From Gammaproteobacteria bacterium (GTDB lineage: Bacteria; Pseudomonadota; Gammaproteobacteria; Pseudomonadales; IMCC2047): a stretch of 64,000 bases of DNA. The stretch lies in contig JAJFKB010000002.1 of NCBI GenBank assembly GCA_021773395.1, positions 248,001 to 312,000 on the forward strand. Reading direction: 5' to 3'. Position numbers and translations under genes: made by a program. Position 1 is the stretch's first letter; every line of letters starts with the position of its first letter. Under the pieces are notes generated by a model that saw only the letters and a program-made list of their open reading frames with translations, ran no database searches and was not told where the DNA came from. Shown piece by piece: positions 2,642 to 49,422 of the stretch.

Positions 2642-2658
2642 TTTTCAAATCCCCTCTG

Positions 2659-4895: not shown

Positions 4896-5026
4896 CGAAA
4901 ATAAGAACGATGCTCCGTCGCCCAATTGCCAGACGGCTGTATACGAAATGCCCCGGACAATCTGAGGTGGACGTTGAGTACAATGACACACCCCATTTAC
5001 AGTAACAGGAAAGAGGTTTCGCCAAC

Positions 5027-5506: not shown

Positions 5507-5554
5507 CAGTCATGTATTCAACCATTATAAAAAAATAAACTGGCATTCTGTGCA

Positions 5555-14948: not shown

Positions 14949-14950
14949 CA

Positions 14951-17104: not shown

Positions 17105-17113
17105 TATTAATTC

Positions 17114-18040: not shown

Positions 18041-18044
18041 ATTG

Positions 18045-18395
18045 CTAAGCCCCCTGCTCCGCGTTCTGACCCTGTTTCACCTTTAGCGCATCAATATCAA
18101 GCTCTATCTCATGGGTGATGGGATGTCCGGGCGGCAAATATTCATTCTCCAGCATGGTACCGCAGTTGGGACAATAGAATTCCAGCAAGCGGCAGTAATC
18201 GCTGTCAGGTGTAAAGCTATAGGCAGCACCGTCGACCATAGGTGGATGCACCTCCGCCATATCCCGCTCGGCGATCAAACATCCCTTTTTATAGTTATCA
18301 CGCGCATCATAGATATCCTGTCCACAGCGGTTGCAGCACCAGCGTTCGTTATCCAGATCTATATCGAGGTATTCCGTAATACGTAATCGGCTCAT
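18045..18395 (-). CDS. Small zinc-binding carboxylase subunit (acetone/acetophenone carboxylase gamma-like)
   Basis: The 116-residue product has two Cys pairs, CCNRCGQDI near residue 20 and CPNCG near residue 76. This is the pattern of the gamma subunit of acetone and acetophenone carboxylases, which binds zinc and bridges the larger subunits. Its ATG overlaps the stop of the upstream HyuA-like gene by four bases (ATGA), implying coupled translation. The tail after about residue 100 is polar and probably flexible. The presence of this subunit separates the operon from hydantoinases and 5-oxoprolinases, which lack it. Confidence 0.85.
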   Translation of the reverse strand: MSRLRITEYLDIDLDNERWCCNRCGQDIYDARDNYKKGCLIAERDMAEVHPPMVDGAAYSFTPDSDYCRLLEFYCPNCGTMLENEYLPPGHPITHEIELDIDALKVKQGQNAEQGA

Positions 18396-20464: not shown

Positions 20465-20512
20465 CAAATCTCCCTCATCGGACCACCTTCGCTCCCACTT
20501 CTATGGTAGGCA

Positions 20513-33942: not shown

Positions 33943-35820
33943 ATGCACAGCAAAAAACCTGTCATGCTGAAGAAGCCTTTTTGGATCGGGTCGCAATTCG
34001 CAGCCAGCTTTCTTACGTTTTTCTTTCTGCTTATCTCCTTACCAACATCCAGCGAAGAACTCGCTCAAAAACAAAAAACAGAATATTACGTTTTCGAGGA
34101 CAGCAGCCAAGTACTGTCACTCAATCAAGCAAAGGCTTTGAAAAGTGAACAGCGTTTTCTACCCGTATCAGCAAACCGGTTTAGCGCAGACAGTTCGGGT
34201 TCCGTATTGTGGTTAAACTTCTACATACCTAAAGCTGAAAAACAGTCCGCCAAGCGCTACCTTGTCATCGGCCCAGGTTACCTGGATCAGGTAATGCTCT
34301 ATCGTGATGCAAGTTCTGAAACAGGTGAAGAACCCTGGTTAATATCGGGTGACTCGGTACCATTTTCGGACAAACCAGTGAACCACCCGTTGCATGTATT
34401 CCCTCTTGATGCAGAAGCCCGCGAATACTATGTACGCAGCACATCGGAAGGTATTTTGCGGCTCAATTGGTCGATTCAGAGTCAAGATGAATTTGCCGCT
34501 GCCAATCAGCTGAGCACATTTTGGTATGCCATTTTGCTGGGCGTTTTAGCGAGCATGATTTTGTATAATTTATGCCTGTATATCAGCATACGCGATACCG
34601 CTTATCTTTTTTATGTTCTTTATCATTTCAGCGCTGCCCTGCTGATTTACTCCCTTTCTGGTTATGCTGGACAACTTCTGTGGCCTGGCTTTGCAAACAG
34701 CACGAACAGCGTTGTACCCATAGCGCTGACTATAATGAACATCTCCGGACCGCTCTTTGTCTATAATTTCCTCGAACTACCTCGTTATTTACCCGAAAAA
34801 GCAAAGCAATTTAAACCGATATTAATACTGGTTAGTCTGCTCGCACTGCCCGGATTAGCGCTCCCCTACAGCCTGGGTTCAAGTATCTTATACACCTGCA
34901 GTCTTATCGTCATTGTAATGATCGGCTATTGGGTGATCAGTGCGTGGAGAGCAAAAGTTGCTGCCGCCAAATTTCTGGTGATTAATTTCTTCTGCATCGT
35001 TTTTCCGGGCGCCCTGGGATCCTTTGGCTTCGAGTTTGGCTGGTTACCAGATCATTTTATTTTTAGTCATATGCTGGAACTCGCGACAGCCGCAGAAACC
35101 CTGCTCCTTTCGCTGTTTCTTGCCAGCCGCATCAAACTGCTTGAAACGGAAAAGAATATCGCGCAGAAGAAAAATCTGCAGCTACAATCCAGTTTTAGCC
35201 AAAAAATGGTGGCCAAGCTGGAGGAGGATCGAAGCCATATCGCCAGAGAACTCCACGACTCAATTGGCCAAACACTTTCGCTGGTGCATATCAACCTGCG
35301 ATCCCAGGCCGACGCATCCGAAACATCACTCTCTCCGATGATGGATCAACAGCAAACCCTGGCATTATTAAAGCAAACCATCAGTGAAGTCCGCCTGCTA
35401 TCACACCGGCTTCACCCGAGCCAGCTGGGACGCCTGGGCTTGATAACAGCGCTGGACTCTCTCGTGAAACAGTGCCGTATTGAAGGTACCCCACTTTTCA
35501 AAGTTGATGTTTCCATCCAGGAAGAAGCCATTCCTGAATCGAAGAAAATTCATCTTTACCGTATTGTGCAGGAAGCCGTTAATAATATACTTACTCATGC
35601 ACAGGCGAGTCTCTGTCGCATATCGTTGCATAGGGAAAACAACCTTATTTTTATGTCGATTCAGGACAACGGCTGTGGATTCAGCAATATCTTAAAAGAA
35701 AATTCCGGTCTTGGGATGACTTCCATGCAGGATCGTGCAAACATCATCGATGCCAGCCTTAACATTGAATCTACCCCAGGCGAAGGCACTTCGGTCACCG
35801 TCAGTTTTAATGCAGCATAA
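33943..35820 (+). CDS. 7TM-DISM sensor histidine kinase
   Basis: This is a membrane sensor kinase of 625 residues. A signal or first membrane segment at 10-35 is followed by a periplasmic 7TMR-DISM extracellular domain (about 45-180). A seven-helix membrane block covers about 190-400, then a coiled linker. The NarL-type HisKA_3 dimerisation domain has the phospho-acceptor His in RELHDSIGQTLS near residue 436. The ATPase domain has the N-box RIVQEAVNNILTHAQAS and the G-box DNGCGF. The response-regulator gene starts 4 bases after its stop. Sensors of this architecture often respond to carbohydrates or envelope signals; the ligand is unknown. The start is not supported by a good ribosome-binding site. 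Confidence 0.9.
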   Translation: MHSKKPVMLKKPFWIGSQFAASFLTFFFLLISLPTSSEELAQKQKTEYYVFEDSSQVLSLNQAKALKSEQRFLPVSANRFSADSSGSVLWLNFYIPKAEKQSAKRYLVIGPGYLDQVMLYRDASSETGEEPWLISGDSVPFSDKPVNHPLHVFPLDAEAREYYVRSTSEGILRLNWSIQSQDEFAAANQLSTFWYAILLGVLASMILYNLCLYISIRDTAYLFYVLYHFSAALLIYSLSGYAGQLLWPGFANSTNSVVPIALTIMNISGPLFVYNFLELPRYLPEKAKQFKPILILVSLLALPGLALPYSLGSSILYTCSLIVIVMIGYWVISAWRAKVAAAKFLVINFFCIVFPGALGSFGFEFGWLPDHFIFSHMLELATAAETLLLSLFLASRIKLLETEKNIAQKKNLQLQSSFSQKMVAKLEEDRSHIARELHDSIGQTLSLVHINLRSQADASETSLSPMMDQQQTLALLKQTISEVRLLSHRLHPSQLGRLGLITALDSLVKQCRIEGTPLFKVDVSIQEEAIPESKKIHLYRIVQEAVNNILTHAQASLCRISLHRENNLIFMSIQDNGCGFSNILKENSGLGMTSMQDRANIIDASLNIESTPGEGTSVTVSFNAA

Positions 35821-35824
35821 AAAT

Positions 35825-36487
35825 ATGAATAAAACTAACATTCTAATTGCTGACGACCACCCTATTTTTCGCCAGGGGGTGAGAAACCTGGTGGAGCAAT
35901 ACGAAGGCATGTCGGTAGTCGCTGAAGCAAACGATGGGCAGTCGGCAATTCGGCTCATTAACTTCCACAAACCTGAAATCGTAATCGTGGATCTGTTTAT
36001 GCCCAACACCGATGGACTCGGCGTGGTGCAATGGACACGGGAAAACTGCCCGGAAACAGCCTGCATTATTTTAACCATGCTAACGGATGAAGCCTTTATC
36101 GATAAAGCCATTTCGATGGGCGCAAAAGGTTATTTATTCAAGGAAGATGCCTATGACCAGCTTCACAACTGTCTGAAATCAGTACGTGAGGGAAACACCT
36201 ACGTCAGCCCCTCCCTGGCCTCCCCGGCTATCCTTCAATCTCCCGTGGATAGCGCTATTATTGCTAAATTAAATCAGCTGACCAACACGCAAATCACACT
36301 GCTACAACTTTTAAGCGATTTTAAGACCAGCCGTGAAATAGCTGATCTAATGCATATCAGTCACCGAACCGTACAGAATCATCGCTTAAATATATGCTCT
36401 ATTCTTGGTGTCCAGGGGTCGGGAAAACTGCTTGAATTTGCAGTAAGACATGAAGTGGAAATCAGGCATTTAAATAGCCACCAATAA
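35825..36487 (+). CDS. NarL/FixJ-type response regulator
   Basis: This is a 220-residue two-component response regulator paired with the preceding kinase. The receiver domain has the acidic pair IADDHP, the phosphorylated Asp in IVIVDLFMPNTDG near residue 56 and the Lys in GAKGYLFKE. The LuxR-type helix-turn-helix is at about 155-215, with TSREIADLMHISHRTVQNHR. I start at the ATG at 35825, right after the kinase stop; a longer frame from 35735 would overlap the kinase and has no family match. It stands directly upstream of the exported-protein operon and probably controls it. Confidence 0.93.
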   Translation: MNKTNILIADDHPIFRQGVRNLVEQYEGMSVVAEANDGQSAIRLINFHKPEIVIVDLFMPNTDGLGVVQWTRENCPETACIILTMLTDEAFIDKAISMGAKGYLFKEDAYDQLHNCLKSVREGNTYVSPSLASPAILQSPVDSAIIAKLNQLTNTQITLLQLLSDFKTSREIADLMHISHRTVQNHRLNICSILGVQGSGKLLEFAVRHEVEIRHLNSHQ

Positions 36488-36556
36488 GCATCATTATAAC
36501 CTCACCGGAATACTTTGATCCGAATTTTCGCCGCCAGCGGGAGATTCTCTAGCTGC

Positions 36557-36573
36557 TTGTGAGTAACTCACAA
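36557..36573. promoter_or_regulatory. Perfect palindrome upstream of the exported-protein operon
   Basis: TTGTGAG-TAA-CTCACAA has perfect 7-base arms and lies 170 bases upstream of the first operon gene and 70 bases after the response regulator. Its dimeric form and position fit a site for the adjacent LuxR-type regulator. Binding is inferred. Confidence 0.5.
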
Positions 36574-36742
36574 ATATTCAAGCATTACTGCTCTTCTACC
36601 ATTTTTTGGGCTCTTGTATTGTAGACAGTTCTGATTTTCCAGATGTCTTAACTTGCGAACACCAAATTCCAACCCATGCCTTACCAACTGCGTTTGGGTC
36701 AGTTCGCAAGCAGACTTATAAATCAAAAATAAGGAGGTAAGT

Positions 36743-38038
36743 ATGGAAATCAAAAGTGCTTTTTCCCTTGGGAAGGCATTATCAGCATTGGTGTTCATGG
36801 TGACTGCAGGATTAGCACAGTCTGCAGCAGACTTTGATCATAATGCCATTGATAAAGCTCGGTCAGGACAAAGAATCTCAGTCGCTACCGGCATTCAATC
36901 TCCGGCCAGTGATGGCATCAGTCAGGTACGCACCTATTTTCGTGCGGACAATGACGGACGCTGGCATTTCGTGCCAATGCGTGCCACGGGCGCCGACTAT
37001 CAAGGACTGCTGCCAGCACCGGATATTCATACCGAATTTGTGCGTTATCAGCTTTTAGCTGTAACCGACAACCGCGAACTGATCAAATCCGAAATATACA
37101 ATATCGAAATTGTTAAGGATGAGGAAGCGCTGGCCAGGCTTAATAAAAAGCCACCCACAGACGTAAAAATTGATGCCTCGAAGCTACAGGATGCCCAGGA
37201 TATTTACGAAAAGCTCCCGTCTCGTGAGCGGGTCACTCAAGCCGACCAACAAAACATCGCCCGCAGCGCCTCAGAAGCGACCCCAGAATCCAGAGTGGAT
37301 GCTGGATCAGAGTATGACCCGCTAAACGATGCGATACCCGGCTTTAGCGATTATATCAACCTGGCATACATGTCTAGTGCAGAGAGCTTCGGTGTCGCCG
37401 CTGGCATTGTAAGCAAGTCTGCCGCCGCAGGTGAAGCACCTGCTGTAAAATCTGCAACTAAAGCAGCAGCAACAGGGGGCTCCAAAGCAGGCTGGGTGCT
37501 GGGTGGTGTAGCTGTAGCAGGTGGCTTAGCAGCCGCTGGTGGAGGTGGCGGTGGCGGTGGCGGCAGTTCTACTCCAGCACCTGCTCCCACACCGGATCCG
37601 ACTCCAGATCCCACACCGGACCCAACGCCTGATCCCACACCGGACCCGACTCCAGATCCCACGCCCGATCCAACTCCGGATCCTACGCCCGACCCGACTC
37701 CAGATCCTACTCCTGATCCCACGCCTGACCCGGTCACAAATTTTGACGGCCGCTGGACAGGAGCTCAGATCTGCGCCGCAACCGGAGATGCAGCATTTCG
37801 CTGGGTAGTCGACCTGAACCAAACGGATGACCAGGTATCCGGGATTATCGCCTTCCATAAGTGCCCCGATGAAGGGAGAGCCACATACAATGTCACAGGT
37901 ACTGCGACTTCTGCCAGCTCAATTCAGTTAAACGGCACTTTAGCCAGCAGCCAGGGACCGCTTGGTGGAACTGCACCCGCTAACCAGGTGTTTACGGTGA
38001 GCGTCGGTCAGCCACCCAGCCCCAACTTTGCTCCCTGA
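36743..38038 (+). CDS. Exported protein with Gly hinge, 12-unit TPDP stalk and shared C-terminal domain
   Basis: The 431-residue protein is the first gene of a nine-gene cluster. A perfect TAAGGAGGT stands before the ATG. A signal peptide ends near AQSAAD (about residue 29). A compact N-terminal domain follows (30-135), then a polar linker and a hydrophobic segment GWVLGGVAVAGGLAAA (about 251-266). Next come nine glycines and twelve TPDP units (283-330). The last 98 residues form a domain with RWTG, two Cys and a PPSPNFAP end, repeated at the C-terminus of the giant protein encoded at 40517-44857. The layout suggests a surface or periplasm-spanning protein on a rigid proline stalk. I know no named family for the whole protein. 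Confidence 0.88.
   Translation: MEIKSAFSLGKALSALVFMVTAGLAQSAADFDHNAIDKARSGQRISVATGIQSPASDGISQVRTYFRADNDGRWHFVPMRATGADYQGLLPAPDIHTEFVRYQLLAVTDNRELIKSEIYNIEIVKDEEALARLNKKPPTDVKIDASKLQDAQDIYEKLPSRERVTQADQQNIARSASEATPESRVDAGSEYDPLNDAIPGFSDYINLAYMSSAESFGVAAGIVSKSAAAGEAPAVKSATKAAATGGSKAGWVLGGVAVAGGLAAAGGGGGGGGGSSTPAPAPTPDPTPDPTPDPTPDPTPDPTPDPTPDPTPDPTPDPTPDPTPDPTPDPVTNFDGRWTGAQICAATGDAAFRWVVDLNQTDDQVSGIIAFHKCPDEGRATYNVTGTATSASSIQLNGTLASSQGPLGGTAPANQVFTVSVGQPPSPNFAP
37589..37732 (+). repeat. 12 x 12-bp coding repeat encoding TPDP
   Basis: Twelve consecutive 12-base units each encode Thr-Pro-Asp-Pro. Codons vary freely at third positions (ACA/ACT/ACG/, CCG/CCA/CCC/CCT, GAT/GAC), so the amino-acid pattern is kept while the DNA has drifted. 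This points to selection for a stiff Pro stalk rather than recent slippage alone. Confidence 0.9.
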
Positions 38039-38057
38039 TAAAAAGGCCTGTTAACTC

Positions 38058-39056
38058 GTGAACAACTATTTTCGAATTAACATCCGCAGGTTTTCCCATC
38101 GCATTCTGTGCGGTGGGATCACCTTGCTGGTCCTGTCATTGTCAGCGACGGTCTTTAGCAAAGATTCCGCAAAAGACCATAATGAGCCACCTGTCGCTGA
38201 ACCATACTTCGGTCCTAAACAGGTGGTCGCGGTGCTACCCTTTGACAACCGGGTAAAGAACATTCCCCAGAACTGGTACTTGGGTGAGGGGTTGTCAGAG
38301 ATACTTATCACTGAACTGATAAAATCGGACCGTTTTTTACTGGTAGAGCGAGACGCCATTCAGGATATTGTTAAAGAGCAAGAGGCCGGTATGAGCGGTT
38401 TGGTGCGCCAGGAGACCGCCGTTAAAACCGGACAACTCAGTGGTGCCCAATTCATGATCAAGGGTGCAATTACTGAATTTAACGCTGAAGCCGCCGGTGG
38501 AGGGATAAGCCTTGCCTTTCGACAGGGCGAAGTAGGAGGTAAATCCAGAACCGCTTATGTGGGCATCGACGTACGTATCGTCGATAACACCACTGGGCAG
38601 ATTTACGCTTCTTATAACGCCAGCGGCACTGCTAAATCCAAGGGGGCCAGTCTGGCCGCGGCCTTTGGAGGTTCTGATAATGTGAAAATCGGCGCTTCCG
38701 CTTTCTACAGCACAGCATTGGGGCAGGCCACACGCGAAGCCGTTCAGCAAATTGTCAGTTTTATTCTGAAAGAAAGTGTCAATATTCCCTGGCAAGGTTC
38801 GGTCATCCAGACAAAAGGAAGTAGCGTTTTCGTTAACCGCGGAAAAACTGCCAATGTCAAAACCGGCGATACTTTTAAGGTGTACTCGAAAGGCGAACCC
38901 CTTATCGATCCGGAAACCGGCTTCAACCTGGGCAGCGTCGAGGAGTATCTGTGTGATATTAAAGTTACTCGTCTAATGCCGAAATTTTCCAGTGCCCGGA
39001 AAACACCGGACTGCAAAGGATTGGAGATAAGACGTGGCGATCTTGTGCGTTACTAA
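38058..39056 (+). CDS. CsgG-domain exported protein
   Basis: This 332-residue protein has a clear CsgG/HfaB-type domain: VVAVLPFDNR, YLGEGLSEILITELIKSDRFLLVERDAIQDIVKEQ (cited as the family signature) and SGAQFMIKGAITEF. CsgG proteins form outer-membrane export pores for curli or holdfast parts. Here the N-terminus (to about residue 35) has a signal peptide without a usual lipobox, so the protein may not be lipidated and may be periplasmic rather than a pore. A C-terminal extension (from about 250) contains SH3-like motifs VFVNRGKTANVKTGDTFKVY. It starts with GTG 19 bases after the TPDP gene. The exact role is unknown. Confidence 0.82.
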   Translation: MNNYFRINIRRFSHRILCGGITLLVLSLSATVFSKDSAKDHNEPPVAEPYFGPKQVVAVLPFDNRVKNIPQNWYLGEGLSEILITELIKSDRFLLVERDAIQDIVKEQEAGMSGLVRQETAVKTGQLSGAQFMIKGAITEFNAEAAGGGISLAFRQGEVGGKSRTAYVGIDVRIVDNTTGQIYASYNASGTAKSKGASLAAAFGGSDNVKIGASAFYSTALGQATREAVQQIVSFILKESVNIPWQGSVIQTKGSSVFVNRGKTANVKTGDTFKVYSKGEPLIDPETGFNLGSVEEYLCDIKVTRLMPKFSSARKTPDCKGLEIRRGDLVRY

Positions 39057-39534
39057 AACTGAGCATTCACAAATGGACTTTTGGACGATTTTAAAGATGA
39101 AATCCAAAATTTTATTTTCTTCGTCACTCTGTCTATCTGGACTGTTTCTATCTGGACTGTTTCTATCTGGACTCTGGCTGTCGGGATTTGGGCTGGCGGC
39201 AAATGCCGATAACACGGATGCGATTAGCCGACCATTACCATCACCCTCGGAGCAACAGGTAGAACGAGCTTTGCAGCTGGGTAACCAATTTCAGGATATG
39301 GCCTACCAGCAAAATCGACCTCGCACGGGAGCACCATTTCCATTAAGTTATATCTATCGACCGGAATACTATCCTCATTACTATTCCGCGTGGCCCTACT
39401 CGCTGCGTCAAAGTAGTGACTACTACCCGCAGTATTCTCCTCACCTGACACCCCGCTACCCGCGGATAGGGCGCTCCTATATCGAACGGCCGCTGTTTAA
39501 TCACTTTCCCAAACGCCACCAGCATAACGATTAA
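39034..39534 (+). CDS. Small exported Tyr/Pro-rich protein
   Basis: I recognise no family. The coding frame overlaps the end of the CsgG-domain gene by 23 bases if the GTG at 39034 (with GGAG 7 bases upstream) is used. A start at the ATG at 39097 would leave a classical signal peptide whose core consists of repeated LFLSG units and ends near LAANA. The mature part of about 110 residues is rich in Tyr, Pro, Arg and His (YRPEYYPHYYSAWPYS and similar), like cell-wall or matrix proteins. Its place in the operon suggests a secreted or surface-associated accessory. Confidence 0.65.
   Translation: MAILCVTKTEHSQMDFWTILKMKSKILFSSSLCLSGLFLSGLFLSGLWLSGFGLAANADNTDAISRPLPSPSEQQVERALQLGNQFQDMAYQQNRPRTGAPFPLSYIYRPEYYPHYYSAWPYSLRQSSDYYPQYSPHLTPRYPRIGRSYIERPLFNHFPKRHQHND
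39133..39173 (+). repeat. 15-bp tandem repeat inside a signal-peptide core
   Basis: CTATCTGGACTGTTT occurs twice exactly (39133-39147, 39148-39162) and a third partial copy follows (39163-39173). It encodes the repeated Leu-Ser-Gly-Leu-Phe core of the signal peptide of the small exported protein. Copy-number change would alter hydrophobic-core length in frame. Confidence 0.8.
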
Positions 39535-39547
39535 GGGTCATATCAGT

Positions 39548-40438
39548 ATGAGAAACCTTGTTCAAAACACATTACTCCCCTTAATCCGCCTATTTGGTAT
39601 TTGTCTGGCGGTATTGTTTGTCTCGCTAACAAAGGGCGTAGTCGCCCAAGAAGCGCTATCGACCCAGAGCAAACCCACGGTCATGATCATATTGCAGGAA
39701 AAGGTCATGGGCGTATTCAACACCACTGGCTGGGAAGTGCCAACTCAAGCTGAAATAACGCTCATGAGTCGCCTTCAGGAACTGGGTTATCCGGTAGTAG
39801 ATCCACAAACGGTGCGTAGAAATGTTGTCCAAGCCAAAGGATTACGGATGCTGGAAGCAGACAACCGTGGCGCAGCCGCAGCAGGCCTGCAGCATGGCGC
39901 TCAGATTTCGATTATCGGTACCGCGATCAGCAAACCAGCCGGCGCCAAACTCTTTGAGACCCAAATGCAGTCTATCCAGGCAACCCTGACCGCCCGAGTT
40001 ATTCACAACGATACAGGACAGATAATCACCACGGGTTCCGCAACTTCCGCCATCGCACATATTGATGAAGTACAAGGCGGCACTCTGGCTCTGGAAAAGG
40101 CGGCACATGATCTGGCTGACTTGCTTATACCCAAAATTGTGACCGCTACTGACAAAGCCACGGGCGAAGCTCGGACCATCGCCCTCAATATCACCGGACT
40201 CAAATCTTATCGCCACCTGGATCACATCCTGTATTTTTTTGAAACCAAGGTAAAGGGTATCTCCGAAGTCTACCTTAGGGATTTCAGCAACAATATCGCC
40301 TCAGTCAACCTATCGTACAGCGATCAGTCGGCCGTGTTGGCGCGCAAAATTGCGACCAGTAAATTCAAAGGATTCAGGCTCGAACCCACACAGGTAACTG
40401 ACAACAGAATTGACTTGTCAGCGATAGCTAACAAATGA
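39548..40438 (+). CDS. Exported CsgG/FlgT-like protein
   Basis: This is a 296-residue protein with a Sec signal peptide (to about residue 34, VVAQE). The mature part has the alternating pattern of CsgG/FlgT-middle-like domains: IILQEKVMG, LQELGYPVVDPQ, LQHGAQISIIGTAIS, ARVIHNDTGQIITTGSATS and LADLLIPKI. The similarity is by fold-like pattern and not certain. A second domain from about residue 215 (ALNITGLKSYRHLDHILYFF) may bind peptidoglycan or partners. It follows the small Tyr-rich gene by 13 bases. With the gene at 38058 it gives the operon two related periplasmic proteins. Confidence 0.7.
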   Translation: MRNLVQNTLLPLIRLFGICLAVLFVSLTKGVVAQEALSTQSKPTVMIILQEKVMGVFNTTGWEVPTQAEITLMSRLQELGYPVVDPQTVRRNVVQAKGLRMLEADNRGAAAAGLQHGAQISIIGTAISKPAGAKLFETQMQSIQATLTARVIHNDTGQIITTGSATSAIAHIDEVQGGTLALEKAAHDLADLLIPKIVTATDKATGEARTIALNITGLKSYRHLDHILYFFETKVKGISEVYLRDFSNNIASVNLSYSDQSAVLARKIATSKFKGFRLEPTQVTDNRIDLSAIANK

Positions 40439-40516
40439 GCCAATTATTCATAGCGACGAAACGCAAGACAATGGACCGGTGGCAGATGCCATTGACAGCC
40501 ATTGAGGACAAATAAC

Positions 40517-43500
40517 ATGGGCATGATCAGACGCATCAAATCCAATTTAAAAGCACCGCTCATTGCACTGGGCCTGCTGATCAGTTTGATATTACTTCCG
40601 CTAACCGCTCACTCAGGCGCCTGGGATCAACTGTCGGAAGCGGAGCAGAAAATTGTTCGTGAACGATTAGTCGACGAACTGGGCAAAATGCTCAACGAAG
40701 GTAAGCTTAACGAGAATCTGCAGTTTACGGCAAAGCATATAGGCACTTGGGCAACGCACGCGGGTGAGATTGTCGAGGGTAATTTTGATAATGCTATAAA
40801 CGCGACGATGAAGTACTCAACAGATCAATTTCTGGCCTCCTTTGAAAAGGAGCTGGGTACAAAAATTGATAGCCTGGAAAATTCTGCCCTGTCGTTTGTC
40901 TATAAACAGGTCATTTCCCACAAAGGCGAATCAAAAAAAATCGCACGTTTAGCGCTCAACGGAGATTTTTCAACAGCCGGAAATATCGCGTGGGAAACCG
41001 CAAAAAAGGACGTTCAACAACAGATACAGACAAAAACCGAAGAAACACTTAAGTTCGCATTCAACTGGGCATTTGATGGCGCCAAAATCGGCAGCTACAC
41101 GCCGGTTGATATATTTCTGGAAATCATCCGCATTGAAAAGATTATTATTCCAGAGCTAAAAAACTATTTAACCAATACTCAACTCAGACAGATTCTACAG
41201 ATCTACAAGGACGAACTTGCCCAATCAGGCGGCAATCATAATGCAGCATGGATCATGATCAGGGACAGTCATATTCCAATCAAAGCCCACTCCGTATCCA
41301 GCCTCAATGAAGAAACATTAAGACAGGCTCTCGAGCAATGTGCGGGTAGTTACTCGAGCCTGGGGCAGTGTATTGGTGATGTGCAATCGAGCTTTAATCG
41401 TAAGCTGGCGCAGGAAAAGCAGCGTTCTGAAAACCTTTTGCGCAATATTGCTGAAGAGTCGAAAGAGAAGTCCAGGGAAGGCTACAAAGAAGTACAAAAA
41501 CTGATACAACGCATTATTGCTGAACATAGCAAAGACTATAAGGATGCGATTAGCGAAGCAAATTCCATTTTAAAGAAACTCCAAACACAGGCTCGTGGCA
41601 TAAAGGGTGACTGCGATGCCTTCGACGCAAAAAAAGAAGTGGTCGATCAGGCTCAGGAAAAAGTGAAACAGGCAAATATCGCGGCAGCGAAAATCAAAAA
41701 TTTTCTAAATACCGCAGACCAATGCAAACTGTTATCTGAAGCGCCTAAAGACCTGGATACGCTGCTACAGCAACTAAAAACGGTCAACAGCACGTTCGAA
41801 GGGCATATGCAATCGGTCACCGATCAGGCCAATAAGGTATGTCAGGTCACCGGCAATATTGGTGCTGCTTTTTCCAAAAGCGAAGGAAAAAAACTACTCG
41901 ACCAGGCCATCAACGAACAAAAAAAACTGAACCAAGCGGTTAGCGAAACTGACTCCAGTGCAGCTTTGGTCCGACGCACCGCGCAAGAGATAAAAACGGC
42001 AGCGACCAGCTTTAAAACAGAACTCTCTTCTATGGATAAGGACATAGGCTCCAGCAATTACCTCGATGAAGAGCAGCAAAAACTGAATGCCGCAAAAAAC
42101 GCGAAAAAGGGTTACGATGCTGCTGTTGCCGCTATGAAGAAAATTGCAGAGCGTCTAAAAGCACGTCAGAAAAACATGGATGAAGCCAACCCGGTTGAGT
42201 TGAGTGTCATGGAACAGGTCGATAAGGCAATGGCTGGCGGTATTAACAAAGAAGAAAAGGTCCGTACCGCTAAACTATTAAAAAAATATAAAGACTTTCC
42301 AAAGGTTAAGGAAATTCTCGCTAAGATCAAAGAAACCAATAGCCAGGCTGAGTGTGCTTACCGGGTGGCACGGCAGATGGGTTCACCAGATCAGGATTAT
42401 AAATGGAAAGATCCCAATTTCAGCGATGATTTACTCGCTAAATTCAAAGAGGCCAAGTCGGATTGCCAGTCTATGCCTGGCGCTGATGCGTTCGACAAAT
42501 ATGAACAGCAAGCTACCTCCATCGCCGCTGAAATGGAAGCCAAAGAGCTACCCTGGATTCCACAAAAGCAGGCGGAACGATGCATTGCCGATGGTCTGGT
42601 TGCTTATCAATCATTGGTCGACCCCGCCACCGCACTTTCCGGTAGCGTAGAGCAGCTCGAGAAAACATGTGGTAACGCGAAAACAATTGCAGATCGCGCC
42701 TCGCATACTGCAAATGCAGCGGTACAAGCGGGTGAAAGTCTCACGAATGCATTGGTCAAACAATCCTCTGGCCTGAATATCGATGATACGTTAGGTGCCT
42801 GTGCACGACTCGATGAAATAAAGGCTGGCGTACTGCAATCCGCAGCTTCTGCAAAAGCTGCCGCTGCAAGTGCCCAAAGTGCAGCAGCGAAAGGTTCTGC
42901 AACCGCTCAATCCTGTGTTTCAAAATCATCCCTTGGATCAATCGATGGGGATCTGGCTGCCATCAAAAAACATCAATACGACGCGGTCATTGCCTATGGT
43001 AAGGCTCAGGAAGGTGATGATCTTTTTGATCGTATCGTTGGTGCAGCTAATAAGGAAACGGCCAGAATACAGAAAACAAAAGAAGGATTCAGTCAATTAC
43101 TGATTTATCGGGCCGCCATCAAAGATCACATAAAAAATTCAAATTCCGATAAAGAAGCCGCGCTTGCCGGGTTCAAAAACTGTAAGGCCCAGCAGGCAGA
43201 TCTTAGCAGTAAAGCTGCCGCTATGGGCGGAAACCCCGATGACAAGGTACTGCCAGGATTGATTCAGCGGATCAATAGCGTCACTACCGAACCGGGGCCG
43301 GAATTAGCCTCCATTGATGGTCAATTGGAAAATGCCCGCGCTTCGCTAAAGCTTCTTGAATCAGCAGGCACAGAGATCGATACAGCTATCGCAAGAGTTA
43401 AAACCGAGTGTCTGGGGAAAACCACACCCTATGCTGAAGTGCTGGGTGCATCGCAGTCTATTTTAACCATAGAAGACTTGAAAACCCAGTTGATCCAAAA

Positions 43501-44857
43501 ACGCAACCAATGCCTCGCATCGCTTGATGCTAAATCCACCGACGCCAGCGCTAGCGCCGGCTCAGAAGATGATGATCGAGGCGGCTATGACTTTGATGAA
43601 GATGAGGGCAACGTTGACCCTGAGCGGGTGGCAGCAGGGGGCGGCGCATCCGGTTCGGTGGGTTCCGGCGGCCTGCCTGGTGCAAACCCTGAACAACAAA
43701 ACACATCGCGCACCGGCACGGGAATTGATCCCTCCTATGGTAGAGATCCGATAGCAGAAGCGCGTCGTGAAAGAGAACGTGCCGCAGATGCAGCGCGGGT
43801 AGCTGAGGCCGGCAATCCTTTTGGCGAAGGTTATGGCGACCAGGGCGGCGGAATGGATGAGTTTCAACAGCCTCCCGATCTGGACCGTATCCCTAATCCC
43901 GATGAAGATTCTGACCGAGACCGGGAACAGGGAAATTCAGAACCCCCAGCGGGATCAAAACCTCCCGAGCAAACACCACCCACTCAGCAGGAACCGGGGA
44001 AGATGCGCTGGTATGTCTACTGCGTTCAGGGTAAAGCGGTGGTCAGAGGCTTTATGTCAAACAATAGCAATTTTGGCGCAAATTCCTATGAAAGCGAAGC
44101 TGCCGCAAAAACCGCCGCAGCAAAAATGAAGTGTGATGGCACGACTAAACCGGAAACGAAACCAGAAACCAAGCCTGATCCTAAAGGTGACAAAGGTGGC
44201 GCACCCGCTAAACCGCCTACTGTTATCCCGCCACCGGTAAAACCACCTGCAGAGAATGCGGTTTGTAAACAACTGGTGAAAAAAATGCAGTCGATGGCCA
44301 GTGACTATACCAAATTGACCAATAACTATATGGCAGCTGCGCGAGCCAAAGATGAAGACGCGCTAAAGCTCTATGGCTGCAAAATATTGACGGAAGCGGA
44401 TCGCTTTTATGATCTGTTCAGCCAATATACCAGCGCAAAATGCCCTGTTGGCGGCGACGTGGGCCGGCTTCGTGATGCTTTCAGTCAGGGCCGAACCGCA
44501 GTGCAGCAATCGCTCAATCAAAATTGCGGTGGCAGCAGTGGAGCCAGCCAGCCAGCACAGTTTGCCGGGCGATGGACGGGAAAGCAATCCTGCAGCGCAG
44601 GCGGTGACGCGGCTTATCGCTGGGTAGTATCGCTGAACCAGAAAGGCAGCAAAGTAACGGGTAATATCAGTTTTCACCGATGTCCCGGTGGTGGCCGCGC
44701 ATCCTATGCCGTTAGCGGAACAGCCACTTCCGCAAAATCAGTCAAGTTGGATGGTGCGCTCAAAAGCAGCCGGGGCCCGCTAGGTAGTAGCGCAAAAAGC
44801 CGTCTATCCTTCACCATTACTAAAAATGCGCCACCAAGCCCTAACCTGGCGCCATGA
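40517..44857 (+). CDS. Giant exported coiled-coil protein with shared C-terminal domain
   Basis: I start at the ATG at 40517 (1446 residues), 8 bases from GAGGA; an upstream TTG at 40502 overlaps that site. The signal peptide ends near TAHSGA. An alpha-helical N-terminal domain is followed by a long coiled-coil rich in Ala, Lys, Glu and Gln (about residues 280-1010) with scattered Cys. An acidic, Gly- and Pro-rich low-complexity linker covers about 1020-1160. A small domain with MRWYVYCVQGKAVVRGFM follows, then a Lys/Pro linker and a helical Cys-rich domain. The last 98 residues match the C-terminus of the TPDP protein (RWTG, GDAA-RWVV, PPSPNLAP). No enzymatic motif is visible. A fibrous periplasmic or surface protein is likely. 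Confidence 0.85.
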   Translation: MGMIRRIKSNLKAPLIALGLLISLILLPLTAHSGAWDQLSEAEQKIVRERLVDELGKMLNEGKLNENLQFTAKHIGTWATHAGEIVEGNFDNAINATMKYSTDQFLASFEKELGTKIDSLENSALSFVYKQVISHKGESKKIARLALNGDFSTAGNIAWETAKKDVQQQIQTKTEETLKFAFNWAFDGAKIGSYTPVDIFLEIIRIEKIIIPELKNYLTNTQLRQILQIYKDELAQSGGNHNAAWIMIRDSHIPIKAHSVSSLNEETLRQALEQCAGSYSSLGQCIGDVQSSFNRKLAQEKQRSENLLRNIAEESKEKSREGYKEVQKLIQRIIAEHSKDYKDAISEANSILKKLQTQARGIKGDCDAFDAKKEVVDQAQEKVKQANIAAAKIKNFLNTADQCKLLSEAPKDLDTLLQQLKTVNSTFEGHMQSVTDQANKVCQVTGNIGAAFSKSEGKKLLDQAINEQKKLNQAVSETDSSAALVRRTAQEIKTAATSFKTELSSMDKDIGSSNYLDEEQQKLNAAKNAKKGYDAAVAAMKKIAERLKARQKNMDEANPVELSVMEQVDKAMAGGINKEEKVRTAKLLKKYKDFPKVKEILAKIKETNSQAECAYRVARQMGSPDQDYKWKDPNFSDDLLAKFKEAKSDCQSMPGADAFDKYEQQATSIAAEMEAKELPWIPQKQAERCIADGLVAYQSLVDPATALSGSVEQLEKTCGNAKTIADRASHTANAAVQAGESLTNALVKQSSGLNIDDTLGACARLDEIKAGVLQSAASAKAAAASAQSAAAKGSATAQSCVSKSSLGSIDGDLAAIKKHQYDAVIAYGKAQEGDDLFDRIVGAANKETARIQKTKEGFSQLLIYRAAIKDHIKNSNSDKEAALAGFKNCKAQQADLSSKAAAMGGNPDDKVLPGLIQRINSVTTEPGPELASIDGQLENARASLKLLESAGTEIDTAIARVKTECLGKTTPYAEVLGASQSILTIEDLKTQLIQKRNQCLASLDAKSTDASASAGSEDDDRGGYDFDEDEGNVDPERVAAGGGASGSVGSGGLPGANPEQQNTSRTGTGIDPSYGRDPIAEARRERERAADAARVAEAGNPFGEGYGDQGGGMDEFQQPPDLDRIPNPDEDSDRDREQGNSEPPAGSKPPEQTPPTQQEPGKMRWYVYCVQGKAVVRGFMSNNSNFGANSYESEAAAKTAAAKMKCDGTTKPETKPETKPDPKGDKGGAPAKPPTVIPPPVKPPAENAVCKQLVKKMQSMASDYTKLTNNYMAAARAKDEDALKLYGCKILTEADRFYDLFSQYTSAKCPVGGDVGRLRDAFSQGRTAVQQSLNQNCGGSSGASQPAQFAGRWTGKQSCSAGGDAAYRWVVSLNQKGSKVTGNISFHRCPGGGRASYAVSGTATSAKSVKLDGALKSSRGPLGSSAKSRLSFTITKNAPPSPNLAP

Positions 44858-44875
44858 AGATAGAGCGAGAAAGAT

Positions 44876-46309
44876 ATGCTGATATCCCATCTTCATAAAA
44901 AACGAAAGCGGCTGATGCGCGCGTCAGTTAGGCACAGTTTGCTGATACTCATGATGCTATATGCCAGCGCAGCCAGTGCGATGGAGTCCATCACTCTGGA
45001 TGACGCGATTAACAGAGCGCTAATTAACAACCCGTCGCTAAAGCAGCTTCGATTGCAGACCGGCTCGGCTGAACTTTCGGTCGGTGTAGCGCGCTCGGAT
45101 TTTGAACTTTCCCTGAAGCCCGAAGGTGGGGTGCGCCTGGACAAGGGTGGCGAGGAAACCGATTATTATGGTTTACGACTGTCTAAAAAAACCATCTACG
45201 GTAGCGAAATATCGGTCAGCGGTCTCAGTGAATCACTGATCGACACCGGTCGGCAAAACCGCTTTACACTGGAATTGTCTCAACCTTTGTTTCGTTTTGC
45301 TGGCGCGCTAATCAACGAAGAACCGATCATTCAAGCCAAGCAGTCTCGCAGAACCGCATTGCGCGACCTGGAGATCAGCCGTTCACGTACTGTGGTTGCT
45401 GTGGTAGAAGCGTTCGAGAAAGTAATACGTCTCAAACAGCAACTGGCAGCAGATGAACAAGCACTCATCAGAGCTGAATCACTCTACAAGCTGACGCTGG
45501 CCAAAGAGCGACTCGGTCGTACCTCACGCATCGACACCTTGAGGGTACAGCTGCAGCAGGGGCAAACACTTTCGCGCACTCAGAATACCAGAGAGCAGCT
45601 GGCCTCGGCGCAAAGAGTACTGGGTGAACTCATGGGTGCAGACAGCCGTCGCCTGCCAGAGTTAATACCTGCACCCTTTTTCCATGTGGAAATTGGTAAC
45701 CTGGAAGAGGCCGTTGCACTGGCTTTAACCAATCGTCTGGATTACGCACAGGCACAACAACAATACGAGGACCGTCGACGAGCCTCACGCATATCAAAAC
45801 GCTCCATGCTACCTAATTTAAAACTGGTAGCACGCTATGAACATGCCGACGATGACCTTTTCTACGACCAGAACCTGAACAGTTCAGAAAGTGCCTGGAC
45901 GATCAGCTTGGTCTCTGACACAGACTTCAACCAAAGTAGGGAAAAGCTGGAATATAGACAATCCCTGTTGCAACAGGATCAAGCCTTCGAACAGATCCGG
46001 GCCGTGCATCTGAGTATCAATCGCGAAGTTGAGCAACGCTTGCTCGCCTATCAGCGCTCGCAAAAAGAACTTGAAGTGCTGGAGGGTAATTTCCAACATG
46101 CCGGGGCCCGACTCAAACTGGCTCGCCAGTTATTTCGTATTGGTCGCACCGATGGCTTTTCCGTAACCGATGCGGAACAGTCCTATTTTACAGCGCAAAG
46201 TGCTTTGCTCAGCGGCAAATCTGAAGCATCGGTCAATGCCTATCGTTTATTAGACGCAATGGGCACGCTCGTCGAATCTCCCAGTCACCTAAAGCCGAGA
46301 CAGATATGA
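44876..46309 (+). CDS. TolC-family outer-membrane efflux protein
   Basis: This is a TolC-like protein of 477 residues. A signal peptide ends near ASAME, and the characteristic start ITLDDAINRALINNPSLKQL is visible. Two outer-membrane-factor repeats of long helices and short strands are separated near residue 270 (NLEEAVALALTNRLDYAQAQQQY). It starts 18 bases after the giant gene and overlaps the membrane-fusion gene by four bases (ATGA). Paired with the MFP, ATPase and permease it should complete an export channel across the envelope. Confidence 0.9.
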   Translation: MLISHLHKKRKRLMRASVRHSLLILMMLYASAASAMESITLDDAINRALINNPSLKQLRLQTGSAELSVGVARSDFELSLKPEGGVRLDKGGEETDYYGLRLSKKTIYGSEISVSGLSESLIDTGRQNRFTLELSQPLFRFAGALINEEPIIQAKQSRRTALRDLEISRSRTVVAVVEAFEKVIRLKQQLAADEQALIRAESLYKLTLAKERLGRTSRIDTLRVQLQQGQTLSRTQNTREQLASAQRVLGELMGADSRRLPELIPAPFFHVEIGNLEEAVALALTNRLDYAQAQQQYEDRRRASRISKRSMLPNLKLVARYEHADDDLFYDQNLNSSESAWTISLVSDTDFNQSREKLEYRQSLLQQDQAFEQIRAVHLSINREVEQRLLAYQRSQKELEVLEGNFQHAGARLKLARQLFRIGRTDGFSVTDAEQSYFTAQSALLSGKSEASVNAYRLLDAMGTLVESPSHLKPRQI

Positions 46310-47532
46310 AACACAAGAGTGTAAGAATAGGTATTTCAGCGGGCATCGCCGCTGTCTCTTTACTTTTTATACTAGGCAACACCGGTGATCCTGCGCAAAC
46401 CAGCTATAACCTGGCCAAAATAGAGCAGAATGCATTGGTGGTTCGCTCTATCTATACCGGTAAAATCGAGGCGCGTAATCAGGTTACTGTCATGTCGAAG
46501 TTCAAGGGTTTCGCCACGGTCGTCGAATTAACAAAAGAGGGCTCCCAGATACGTACCGGTGATCTGGTAGCACGTTTTGATTCAGCAGATCTGGAGCGAG
46601 AGTTGCTCAATCTGGAAAAAGAGTATGCCTTGGCTGAATCCGAGCGCAAAAGCCAGTTTAATGCCATCATTCCCCTGGAGGTGGAAGAACTGAAGATGGA
46701 TTTACAAAAAATCTCCGAAGCCGCAGCCGCCGAAAAACAGTATTTGAAAGACAGCATGGCTCTGGCACAAGAAAATGTCGTATCCATGATGGAGGTCGAG
46801 CAACAAAAAGCCAAGGTTGCACAGCTGGATGCGGAATATCGGGCGGTTAAAAATCGCCTTGCGCTAACCAGAAAATATTTACATCCCTCTATGCGCCAAC
46901 GTGCCAACGCCAAGCTGCACTCCGCCAAACAGGCCCTTGAACTGGCCCGTACCCAGCTGGCCAACACCAGCGTATATGCCCCGGCAGGCGGCCTGTTGGT
47001 GTACAAACCCTTGCACATTGGCGGGGAATACCGAACTCTGAGAATTGGTGACTCCTTGCATGCCAACCAACCCTTCATGCTGATACCGGATCTTGAGGAT
47101 ATGGTATTACACTCCATGATCCCCGAAAGCGAGCTCTCACAGGTAAAAGCAGGGCAAAAGGTAGTGATTTACCCACAGGCATTTCCAGACATGAGACTCG
47201 AAGGGATCGTCGAGCAGGTGGGTGTAATTGCCGAATCAGCCCCGGGACAACCCAAATGGCAGAATTACTTTAGTTTAACCATTGCCATCGACGATAAGGA
47301 CGAAAAACTACGCCCAGGTATGTCAGCCGTAGCTCATGTGATTTCGGCGCATCGTGAGGACGCTCTGCTGATACCACGGCGGGCTATCACCTGGGCCGAT
47401 GGTACGGCCTATGCTGAAGTGAAAACAGCATTACAAATTTCCTCCCGCAAGCTTTCTTTGGGGGCTGTTAACGAAACCCATTATGAAGTGCTGGCCGGGC
47501 TGAGTGCTGGGGAAACGGTGATTCTAAAATGA
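46306..47532 (+). CDS. Periplasmic membrane-fusion protein (HlyD/MacA-like)
   Basis: This 408-residue adaptor has an N-terminal membrane anchor (residues 5-24), a lipoyl half-motif (VVRSIYTGKIEARNQVTV) and a long alpha-helical hairpin (about 95-205). The returning lipoyl/barrel region follows (NTSVYAPAGGLLVYK, RPGMSAVAHV). It overlaps both neighbours by four bases. It would link the ABC permease to TolC. The hairpin length is similar to that of MacA-type adaptors. Confidence 0.9.
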   Translation: MKHKSVRIGISAGIAAVSLLFILGNTGDPAQTSYNLAKIEQNALVVRSIYTGKIEARNQVTVMSKFKGFATVVELTKEGSQIRTGDLVARFDSADLERELLNLEKEYALAESERKSQFNAIIPLEVEELKMDLQKISEAAAAEKQYLKDSMALAQENVVSMMEVEQQKAKVAQLDAEYRAVKNRLALTRKYLHPSMRQRANAKLHSAKQALELARTQLANTSVYAPAGGLLVYKPLHIGGEYRTLRIGDSLHANQPFMLIPDLEDMVLHSMIPESELSQVKAGQKVVIYPQAFPDMRLEGIVEQVGVIAESAPGQPKWQNYFSLTIAIDDKDEKLRPGMSAVAHVISAHREDALLIPRRAITWADGTAYAEVKTALQISSRKLSLGAVNETHYEVLAGLSAGETVILK

Positions 47533-48233
47533 TACCTGCCCCAAAAACGGCACCCATTCTGGAGTTCAAAAATGTTAGCAAAGCCTACAGCAACGGAGAC
47601 AGTACGCAAAAAGTATTACATGGCGTCAATCTAAGTGTCTATCCCGGTGATTTCTGTGCCATCACCGGGCCTTCAGGATCAGGTAAATCCACCTTTTTAA
47701 ATTTGTGCGCCCTGTTGGATGAACCTTCTGCCGGTGAAATATTTTTCAACGACCAGGCCACATCGGGACTTACCGAATCTGCATTATCAATGCTGCGAAA
47801 AAAGAATGTCGGCATGGTATTTCAACAGTACTGTTTACTGCCCTACCGTAGCGTTTTGGAAAACGTCCTGTTTCGCTTTCGTTACTTGGAGGTGGATAAA
47901 GCAGAGGCCCTGAGAATGGCTAAATACGCCCTAGCCAAGGTGGGCATGTCATCATTTCTGGATAAGCCAACCCATCTACTTTCTGGCGGAGAAATGCAGC
48001 GAGTCGGTATCGCTCGCGCAATCGCCTTAAAACCCAGGCTATTGGTTGCCGACGAACCTACCGGCAACTTGGACTCATCTGCCGCAAAACAGGTTATGCG
48101 CTGTCTGAACGATCTCGGACAGCAGGAGGATATCGCCATCCTGCTGGTAACCCATAACGAATCTCTTTTGGATTACGCTTCGCGTCATCTGCGCTGTAAA
48201 GATGGTAATCTGATTGAACATGAAACCGCTTAA
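47529..48233 (+). CDS. ABC transporter ATPase (MacB/LolD type)
   Basis: This 234-residue ATPase has Walker A GPSGSGKST (about residue 44), the Q-loop MVFQQYCLLPYRSV, the signature LLSGGEMQRVGIARA, Walker B LLVADEPTGNLDSS and the switch His in LVTHNE. It belongs to the LolD/MacB/FtsE group. It starts at an ATGA overlap with the fusion protein, and the permease begins inside its last codons. Confidence 0.95.
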   Translation: MIPAPKTAPILEFKNVSKAYSNGDSTQKVLHGVNLSVYPGDFCAITGPSGSGKSTFLNLCALLDEPSAGEIFFNDQATSGLTESALSMLRKKNVGMVFQQYCLLPYRSVLENVLFRFRYLEVDKAEALRMAKYALAKVGMSSFLDKPTHLLSGGEMQRVGIARAIALKPRLLVADEPTGNLDSSAAKQVMRCLNDLGQQEDIAILLVTHNESLLDYASRHLRCKDGNLIEHETA

Positions 48234-49422
48234 CATTTCACCGCTTTATCTGGATATCAGGGAAGGTATAAAAAGCAGACCCGGGCGGTTTGGCCTCTCA
48301 TTGTTTGCCATGACTATCGGAATGGCTGTTCTTACAGCACTGATCGCCCTTCTGTTAGGACTCGAGGCACGCTCACAGCAGCTAAGTGAAGAACTCGGCA
48401 CTAACGTCATCGCAATTTTGCCAAAGCCATCAAACCACAAACAACCACTGAAACCATCACACGCACATTTGCTACGTGCCAATTACCCCGGCGCACGAGT
48501 CAGTGCAGTGAGGCGAAGCCGAGCGCATACCCCGGGTACCGATCGAAGCCTGGTAGTGATCGCTTCTGAGAGTGAATTGGTTAATATTCGTCAATGGAAA
48601 ATGATAAAAGGCCGTTTTTTTGATGAACTGGATATCCAGCTCAGGAAGCGTCATGTAGTCGTAACCGAGGCTCTGCATAAGAGCTGGCGGTGGGATGTTG
48701 GCGCCACCATTTTACTAAGAAACACGCCTTTCCTGATTATCGGTGTGGTCTCATCTGACGACTCTGCTTTAGCAGGCGAATACGGTGATTCCCGACTTAC
48801 TACTGGAGAACAGGCGGTATTCGTACCCCTGACGGTTGAATCGCACTGGGATGATCAAGTGGTATCAGAAGCATCAATTGATGCGCTTTATATGAGACCT
48901 GCTAACAACATGGCGGCAGAAGAGATTCTTCCCGGGCTAAAAAATCTGTTATCGCAGCCGGGCATGGACCTACAAAATCTATCCTGGATTATCCCCGCCA
49001 CTTTGATTGAAAATGTTAAACAGATGCAAACCACCATCGGACTAACCGTCGGCGCAATTGCGATACTCTGTCTGATTTTGGGTGGCACGACCCTTACCAG
49101 CTTGCTGGTGGCTAACGTGCGTGATCGAATTTCAGAGATTGGTTTACGCCGTGCGCTGGGAGCAACAGAAATGGATATCGCAATCCTGTTTATCGCAGAA
49201 GGCTGCGTGGCAACAGTTGCAGCCGGAATACTAGGCCCACTGTTTGTACACCTGGTCCTTGTACAAAAAATAGGCATATTATCGCGATTACCCTTGGAAC
49301 TGGGTGCTCACACAGTCTTCCTGCCATTACTTTTCTCAGTGTTGCTAGGCATACTCTTCTCTTTTTGGCCGGCAATTTCTGCGGCACGTATCAGCCCCGC
49401 TGAAGCACTAAGGAGTGAGTAA
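48220..49422 (+). CDS. MacB-like ABC permease (FtsX fold)
   Basis: This 400-residue permease has the MacB layout: an N-terminal membrane segment (about 20-45, FGLSLFAMTIGMAVLTALIALLLG), a periplasmic MacB_PCD domain (about 50-260) and three C-terminal helices. The FtsX signature RDRISEIGLRRALGATEMDI precedes the second. The ATG at 48220 overlaps the ATPase gene by 14 bases; a TTG at 48214 is less likely. Unlike E. coli MacB, the ATPase is on a separate chain. Such exporters move substrates from the periplasm through TolC, which fits periplasmic proteins of this operon as cargo. Confidence 0.9.
   Translation: MKPLNISPLYLDIREGIKSRPGRFGLSLFAMTIGMAVLTALIALLLGLEARSQQLSEELGTNVIAILPKPSNHKQPLKPSHAHLLRANYPGARVSAVRRSRAHTPGTDRSLVVIASESELVNIRQWKMIKGRFFDELDIQLRKRHVVVTEALHKSWRWDVGATILLRNTPFLIIGVVSSDDSALAGEYGDSRLTTGEQAVFVPLTVESHWDDQVVSEASIDALYMRPANNMAAEEILPGLKNLLSQPGMDLQNLSWIIPATLIENVKQMQTTIGLTVGAIAILCLILGGTTLTSLLVANVRDRISEIGLRRALGATEMDIAILFIAEGCVATVAAGILGPLFVHLVLVQKIGILSRLPLELGAHTVFLPLLFSVLLGILFSFWPAISAARISPAEALRSE

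Follow-up and report, generated by a model that had tools for sequence, protein, structure and literature searches.

In a 64,000-nucleotide stretch of a gammaproteobacterial genome (contig JAJFKB010000002.1, positions 248,001 to 312,000; hereafter the window), a two-component kinase-regulator pair is followed by nine genes for exported proteins, for relatives of the ring proteins CsgG and FlgT, and for a TolC-type pump. The unit with its pair occupies 33943-49422 and the nine-gene part 36743-49422, all on the + strand. We read it, with confidence a little short of even, as a rare, horizontally spread, two-component-controlled operon that would secrete or display giant modular proteins at the outer membrane. 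Its features are as follows.

33943..35820, +, sensor histidine kinase with 7TMR-DISM sensor domain, P0010 (Pfam)
35735..36487, +, LuxR-type response regulator, P0011 (Response_reg, GerE; true start probably internal)
36557..36573, +, candidate operator, perfect palindrome TTGTGAGTAACTCACAA (pattern search)
36743..38038, +, exported stalk protein P0001, 431 residues (conserved N-terminal domain, Gly/Ala-rich segment, TPDP stalk, C-terminal domain)
38058..39056, +, CsgG-domain protein with FlgT_C-like C-terminus, P0002 (Pfam)
39034..39534, +, small exported Pro/Tyr-rich protein P0003 (likely start an internal ATG near 39097, by eye)
39548..40438, +, FlgO/FlgT-like periplasmic protein P0004, the family marker (relatives, predicted fold)
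40502..44857, +, giant exported protein P0005, 1451 residues (composition and comparison with other giants)
42542..43561, +, neck segment of giant P0005, common to an RHS protein (profile models)
44876..46309, +, TolC-type outer-membrane factor P0006 (Pfam OEP, 8.1e-36)
46306..47532, +, periplasmic adaptor P0007 (HlyD_D23, 4.3e-13; NCBIfam RND_mfp, 8.2e-31, above cut-off)
47529..48233, +, ABC ATPase P0008 (ABC_tran, 7.1e-31; Walker A/B, signature and H-loop present)
48214..49422, +, MacB-type permease P0009 (MacB_PCD, 2.4e-21; FtsX, 2.8e-8)

Genes of the unit

Nine plus-strand genes with short gaps or overlaps behind a two-component pair had been described in a sequence-only reading that preceded this analysis, and so they lie: the distances range from -23 to +63 bases (19, -23, 13, 63, 18, -4, -4 and -20 in order from P0001 to P0009), and the pair, at 33943-36487, has kinase and regulator domains by Pfam. 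Each of P0001-P0005 and P0007 has a hydrophobic N-terminus, and a pattern search of the first 60 residues found no lipobox in any of the six. For P0003, P0005 and P0011 the choice of start codon is not secure. Pfam gives nothing convincing in P0001, P0003, P0004 and P0005; PADLOC, applied to eight proteins, returned two marginal matches to anti-phage defence (TolC and permease), and no RNA family was found in the window.

Kinase P0010 matches 7TMR-DISM_7TM (1.2e-30), DISMED2 (3.8e-21), HisKA_3 and HATPase_c, and a kinase stands at the equivalent position in the related loci L019, L041 and G300 (L and G numbers are our own, for loci and genomes). Regulator P0011 (Response_reg, 4.1e-25; GerE, 7.6e-9) is 73% identical in L019, 72% in L041 and 43% in G300. 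The palindrome TGTGA-N5-TCACA occurs a single time in the window against 0.05 expected, and it lies ~150-170 bases upstream of the stalk gene in the window, L019 and L041; in a search confined to 76 loci it was found only there and in the overlapping copies L011, L028 and L075, being absent at the G300 locus. A scan for sigma-70 promoters gave nothing above shuffles.

The two large exported proteins do share a C-terminal domain (CTD), as the earlier reading had it: residues 334-431 of P0001 and 1354-1451 of P0005 are identical at 58 of 98 positions (59%, E=2e-36), a likeness that suggests a single sorting or docking step used by both proteins. The TPDP array seen in P0001 by that reading is also there, encoded by a tandem repeat at ~37573-37728. 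The N-terminal part of P0001 is 42-66% identical in three loci; no solved relative of this domain was found, although by eye it resembles an immunoglobulin-type sandwich. Matches of the CTD in PDB (0.003-0.007; a phage tail fibre, an endoglucanase) were mutually unrelated and were not used.

Conservation and spread

The P0004 family is rare. Among 245 genomes searched in the order, the window's own is the single one in which the marker was found; at E<=0.01 it was found in eight of 369 genomes of the class, below 1e-90 in the window's own genome, G300 and G601 and weakly in the other five. Within families it occurs in three of 140 genomes of that of Pseudohalioglobus lutimaris (G609, which is L019, and G743 strong, one weak), and in one of eight genomes of the G300 family and one of 23 of the G601 family, each the genome itself. 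A scan of a species-genome collection with a three-sequence P0004 profile yielded at least nine loci from 70 candidate stretches, a lower bound because the scan needs short conserved patterns; eight of the nine are metagenome-assembled genomes (MAGs). Their records are titled Gammaproteobacteria, Nitrospiraceae/Nitrospirae, Syntrophaceae/Syntrophus and Desulfocapsaceae, the class names of the gammaproteobacterial ones being presumed. The plasmid collection held no match to P0004. Rare as it is, the family reaches Nitrospirota and Desulfobacterota, and this sparse, wide spread points to horizontal transfer.

Comparisons below refer to 12 loci: the window, L019, G743/L041, G300/L012, G601/L013/L024 (one contig, counted once), L020, L021, L022, L023, L025, L026 and L027. 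Weak P0004 matches outside them are in G256, G271, G298, G381, G436 and G631; in G381 a distant P0004/P0002 pair lies side by side (26% and 31%). The P0004 relatives in the 11 other loci are ~40-74% identical. All eight genomes of L019-L023 and L025-L027 have a P0002 relative (E from 5e-154 to 3e-5, three of them weak at ~1e-5), in some cases on a different contig, and two lie next to the G601 locus. Giants or other long open reading frames (ORFs) adjoin P0004 at 10 of the 12 (window, L019, L041, G300, G601, where they are convergent, L020, L022, L023, L025 and L027), and are not beside it at L021 and L026.

Mapping of gene order in other genomes, the check proposed by the sequence-only reading, did find the window's order elsewhere. 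L019, from the named isolate Pseudohalioglobus lutimaris HF004, has an identical order from kinase to permease, with the ten larger proteins 40-76% identical. L041 matches this order from the kinase as far as TolC, at which point its contig stops, and the small gene is missing; G300 keeps the whole order with an RHS/YD protein in the giant's place. The kinase-to-permease subtype is thus a fixed, co-inherited unit. None of 31 window ORFs (>=150 residues) outside the unit has a relative in the examined stretches of L019, L041, G300 and G601, which puts the unit at different genomic sites in L019 and G300; for L041, whose contig carries no flanking sequence, the comparison is silent on the site.

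Giants, stalk proteins and RHS/YD proteins

P0005 is laid out as a head (residues ~40-680), a Cys-rich neck (~681-1020), an acidic and Pro-rich linker, a 4-Cys segment and the CTD. The label of coiled-coil protein that it first received stands for composition only, and the best match in a PDB search was only 0.52. In BLAST among the giants, those of the window and L019 are alike across most of their length (40%), and their head is common to G601B, one of the G601 giants (24-26%; E=2e-57 for the window). The L041 giant matches the window's mainly in the C-terminal 200 residues (43%) and weakly in the neck; among the heads of the L041, G300, G601A and window proteins the same comparison found no similarity.

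Neck segments were picked from these BLAST matches. Six of the nine invariant columns in a five-sequence neck alignment are Cys, at 723, 767, 805, 894, 970 and 1004 of P0005. A model from four giants scored the tail of the G300 RHS protein at 43.8 bits (shuffles <=4.3; 350 and 4 reported of 500 each). Leave-one-out models gave 72.3 bits for L041, 94.8 for G601A, 41.7 for the G300 RHS protein and, with L019 also out, 42.3 for the window (shuffles <=6.2; sets of 300 sequences each, 100 for G601B and L020, of which HMMER reported 18 to 249); in G601B and L020 no neck was found. The neck occurs in three of 369 class genomes, the three with strong P0004, and the CTD in one of 367 genomes searched, the window's own, twice (P0001 and P0005); the neck and CTD models were built from the genomes that they then find, so that weight attaches only to the negative results and the leave-one-out tests.

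The CTD of the stalk protein is 58-81% identical in L019 and L041 and is replaced in G300. The alternative domain there is the end of a 1179-residue G631 protein (45.4 bits; shuffles <=8.6, 991 of 1000 reported). From these comparisons, it seems that stalk and giant have swapped C-terminal domains and that giants have swapped heads with one another. The 1179-residue G631 protein adjoins a FlgT-like gene, and next to the two lie ORFs of a phage-type integrase and of TraI_2 conjugation type (L045:1284-10327), hinting at mobility of related loci. Another G300 protein, L017:10751-11572, ~5 kb upstream of the kinase gene, has by eye a stalk-like build (hydrophobic N-terminus, Gly-rich segment, compact C-terminal part) and no Pfam match.

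Among 163 ORFs (>=250 residues) of 15 other loci, the 4-Cys segment had one marginal match, a 318-residue ORF of G601 (L016:9046-9999, - strand; 12.8 bits, E=0.001), ~19 kb from the P0004 relative. The Syntrophaceae exported giants at L022:10784, L023:3381 and L046:1761-8324 start with a nucleotidyltransferase-like motif (GS, then GGSSDFDMR), a signature that would be odd on an exported protein. Pfam found nothing in their first 500 residues, the PDB profile match had E=0.78, and the heads of L041 and G601A gave no match when profiles were compared; such a head is not claimed.

The YD/RHS cocoon is a structure known from toxins and from nerve receptors of animals. At the G300 locus, the giant's place is taken by an RHS/YD protein of 1957 residues, whose head belongs to that repeat family and whose cocoon is followed by the Cys-rich neck common to other giants, not by a short variable toxin; no RHS is present in the window's giant. 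PF05593 matches occur in four of the 12 genomes with P0004. In G300, G610 and G613, every such match shares a contig with the P0004 locus (L020 being G610:C537; in G613 the RHS gene is ~9 kb downstream of the locus), and RHS genes are present at L020 and L023. In G743, which also has a neck-type locus, two RHS ORFs of 2839 and 2036 residues (L068:3526-12042 and L069:5920-12027) are on contigs other than that of the locus. Directly upstream of the G601 giant with the window-type head, a DUF6531/RHS N-terminal fragment (L013:905-1816, - strand) looks like a trace of head exchange.

Such heads could be effectors against other cells, as in RHS/YD polymorphic toxins, with the operon as launcher, a weapon reading that we regard as improbable. 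It would account for the RHS head in G300, the RHS genes at L020 and L023, the RHS fragment at G601, and heads that vary while the neck or C-terminus is kept. The variation is N-terminal, however, the opposite of classical polymorphic toxins; the window's genome has no PF05593 match, Pfam found no toxin domain in the giants scanned, and the gap between the window's giant and the TolC gene is just 18 bases, though no search for immunity genes was made. Passages of a survey of polymorphic toxins (PMC3482391) do not mention CsgG, curli, MacB, TolC or LPP20.

Ring, pump and possible route

P0002 is a CsgG protein by Pfam (PF03783, 6.5e-36) and by PDB profile (CsgG, 1.3e-11), with a C-terminal FlgT_C-like stretch slightly under cut-off (25.3 of 27 bits). 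Its sequence is closer to CsgG than to FlgT_M (6.5e-36 versus 0.028), and it aligns to CsgG with little gap through putative hairpin segments, the CsgG counterparts of which we take to be the membrane hairpins; alternation scores of these segments are 1.5-2.4, inside the range of the other strands (0.45-3.4). P0002 also has the middle and C domains of the FlgT fold. P0004 has only a weak FlgO match in Pfam (E=0.017), and the predicted fold of its first half matches TolB-N, FlgT and CsgG, so that the early description of two CsgG/FlgT-like proteins holds. Neither protein has a Pfam match to FlgT_N, a domain carried by the P0004 relatives at L021, L022, L023, L025 and L026; LPP20/FlgP-like genes adjoin four of these (L021, L023, L025 and L026). 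The likeness to FlgO/FlgP/FlgT of the H and LPHT rings extends from the architecture (CsgG-like plus FlgT_C) and fold of P0002 to these P0004 relatives and their neighbours. What sets the loci apart from that system is their link with giant exported proteins, joined in one branch by a MacB-type pump. Relatives of the flagellar ring proteins FlgT, FlgO and FlgP appear here in a context in which no flagellar gene was noticed when ORFs were read, no systematic scan having been made.

Curli (type VIII) secretion is approached by the CsgG domain of P0002, putative hairpin segments included, and by the exported proteins in the operon. The operon departs from it in the extra FlgT_C-like domain, in the second, FlgO/FlgT-like protein, and in having giant modular proteins versus the small amyloid subunits of curli. 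Because ring proteins and long exported proteins co-occur across groups, the giant probably leaves through the ring or is anchored by it.

Several results weigh against the secretion or display reading. Unlike CsgG, P0002 has no lipobox; over its whole length its fold is closer to FlgT (LPHT ring) than to CsgG; and its hairpin segments are modelled with low confidence (low predicted local distance difference test values). These three points argue against a pore, and for FlgT, a ring protein, we know of no pore. In none of the nine operon proteins did Pfam find CsgE, CsgF or curlin. The neck is absent from the 163 ORFs mentioned above (best 3.2 bits), which took in Nitrospirota, Syntrophaceae and the L020/L023 RHS ORFs, and the 4-Cys segment gave no signal above shuffles in the G300 RHS protein or the G601 giants. 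Finally, type IV pilus genes lie near the P0004 gene in two Syntrophaceae loci, which speaks against one role for all of the family: a secretin with PilP, and PilM and PilN, a few kb upstream on the opposite strand (L022:1227-6373, L025:766-5713). P0004 there may therefore serve a pilus. The C-terminus of P0002 also matches TsaP, a component of type IV pilus machines, and taken together these findings hint at a ring surrounding the pilus secretin in Syntrophaceae.

Much of this would suit an envelope scaffold, in which a FlgT/FlgO/FlgP-like ring made of P0002 and P0004 would lie beneath the outer membrane and keep the giant in the periplasm, in the way that accessory discs are held by flagellar motors, while the pump exports an unrelated small compound. 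The FlgT-like whole-length fold, the TsaP match, the FlgT_N domains and LPP20/FlgP-like neighbours, the pilus genes and the missing lipobox all favour it; the closer sequence match to CsgG, the nearly ungapped alignment through the putative hairpins, and the RHS, HYR and PKD domains of the relatives' proteins, which are typical of outside proteins, do not, and we consider it rather unlikely. An adhesin or matrix system like holdfast anchoring, with giant and stalk adhesive and the pump exporting a lipid, peptide or polymer part of the matrix, is unlikely too. There is a precedent in Caulobacter HfaABD, where a CsgG homologue (HfaB) anchors surface material, and a CsgG-type ring with exported repeat proteins would fit it. 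The HfaB model does match P0002 (E 0.0012), but far under cut-off (18.1 of 300 bits), and the ten proteins scanned include no match to HfaA or HfaD.

The MacAB-TolC set of the sequence-only reading stood in so far as TolC, adaptor, ATPase and MacB-type permease are all present, as in MacAB-TolC and in Aat, which we take to be the dispersin exporter. MacB proper fuses ATPase and permease, however, and here P0008 and P0009 are separate genes, both under the NCBIfam MacB cut-off of 966 bits (ATPase 165, permease 80). The permease is its own branch: a P0009 search scored 866 bits for itself, 250.7 for the copy at the G300 locus, and 102.7 for the next best of 369 genomes. It differs from MacAB-TolC also in its fixed partnership with CsgG/FlgT-like proteins and giants. 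All four loci of the kinase-regulator-stalk type have TolC behind the giant, and the three that are not cut short have the complete pump; to this extent the expected co-conservation of transporter and exported proteins was found. It does not extend to the other eight of the 12 P0004 loci, where no TolC, adaptor or MacB-type match was found in the stretch examined (short at L020, 5 kb, and L027, 8 kb). A 28% ATPase match at L026 falls within an HlyD/ABC-2 exporter. With the pump at only four of 12 loci, ring and giant look like the older core and the pump like an addition, not fixed to all loci.

That the exported proteins are cargo of the pump was the weaker part of the earlier proposal. Export centred on the TolC/MacB-type system, which would carry giant and stalk protein out of the periplasm, is highly doubtful in our view. 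A single operon and an operon-specific permease branch speak for it, as do the small periplasmic cargoes reported for MacB-family pumps. The pump is missing, though, from the examined stretches of eight loci, among them G601, whose giants share the neck or head, and the cargoes reported in passages of PMC8277102, which include dispersin (~10 kDa) as a precedent for small-protein export, are of ~0.5 to 10 kDa, against a giant of 1451 residues. A small component is therefore the likelier cargo, and the pump probably moves something smaller than the giant. P0003 would be a guess: it has relatives in L019, G300 and G601, and counting against it are its absence from L041, which has TolC, and its presence in G601, with no pump in the stretch examined. 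Two other exporters were seen near these loci. In the Nitrospirota MAG at L026:13145-16330, the CsgG-like gene is closely followed by genes for an HlyD-type adaptor and an ABC-2 transporter, perhaps another pump with an equivalent role; in G300, a second TolC/adaptor/ATPase/MacB-type permease set (L012:46-4451), farther from the window's (permease 29-31%, adaptor 25%), is directly upstream of the kinase-regulator pair.

Under the reading of an operon for secretion or display of giants, the kinase-regulator pair would turn the genes on from the palindrome upstream of P0001, signal peptides would bring giant and stalk protein into the periplasm, and disulfides could form between the neck cysteines. 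P0002 (CsgG/FlgT type) and P0004 (FlgO/FlgT type) would build a ring in or under the outer membrane as exit and anchoring place, the shared CTD letting one machinery handle both stalk protein and giant. The N-terminal head, helical, RHS/YD or other by lineage, would be the working part outside, and the MacB-type TolC pump, an addition of one branch, would most likely move a small periplasmic component (a peptide, a lipid or P0003), not the giant.

The component families are known and the assembly is without description in the literature searched (subscription papers lay mostly outside its scope), in keeping with the first reading, which had recognised no system of this composition: no description of the gene combination was found among the matches listed, nor any paper joining CsgG, FlgT and outer membrane, or CsgG, RHS repeat and secretion. 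More tentatively, the loci may represent a new outer-membrane secretion or display system, ranging from Gammaproteobacteria to Nitrospirota and Desulfobacterota, in which a CsgG/FlgT-derived ring exports Sec-delivered giants with interchangeable N-terminal heads. A CsgG/FlgT-type pair adjoins RHS/YD-type proteins in distant groups, and the ring, if this is true, would be a missing delivery route for RHS/YD proteins bearing signal peptides. How teneurin-like proteins are delivered is described as still to be elucidated in a passage of PMC13018210.

Elsewhere in the window, 1178-6439 and 12876-20467 hold, by eye, BoxB/BoxC genes of benzoyl-CoA degradation, a BoxR-like regulator and hydantoinase/oxoprolinase-type ORFs, which we read as an aromatic catabolism region.

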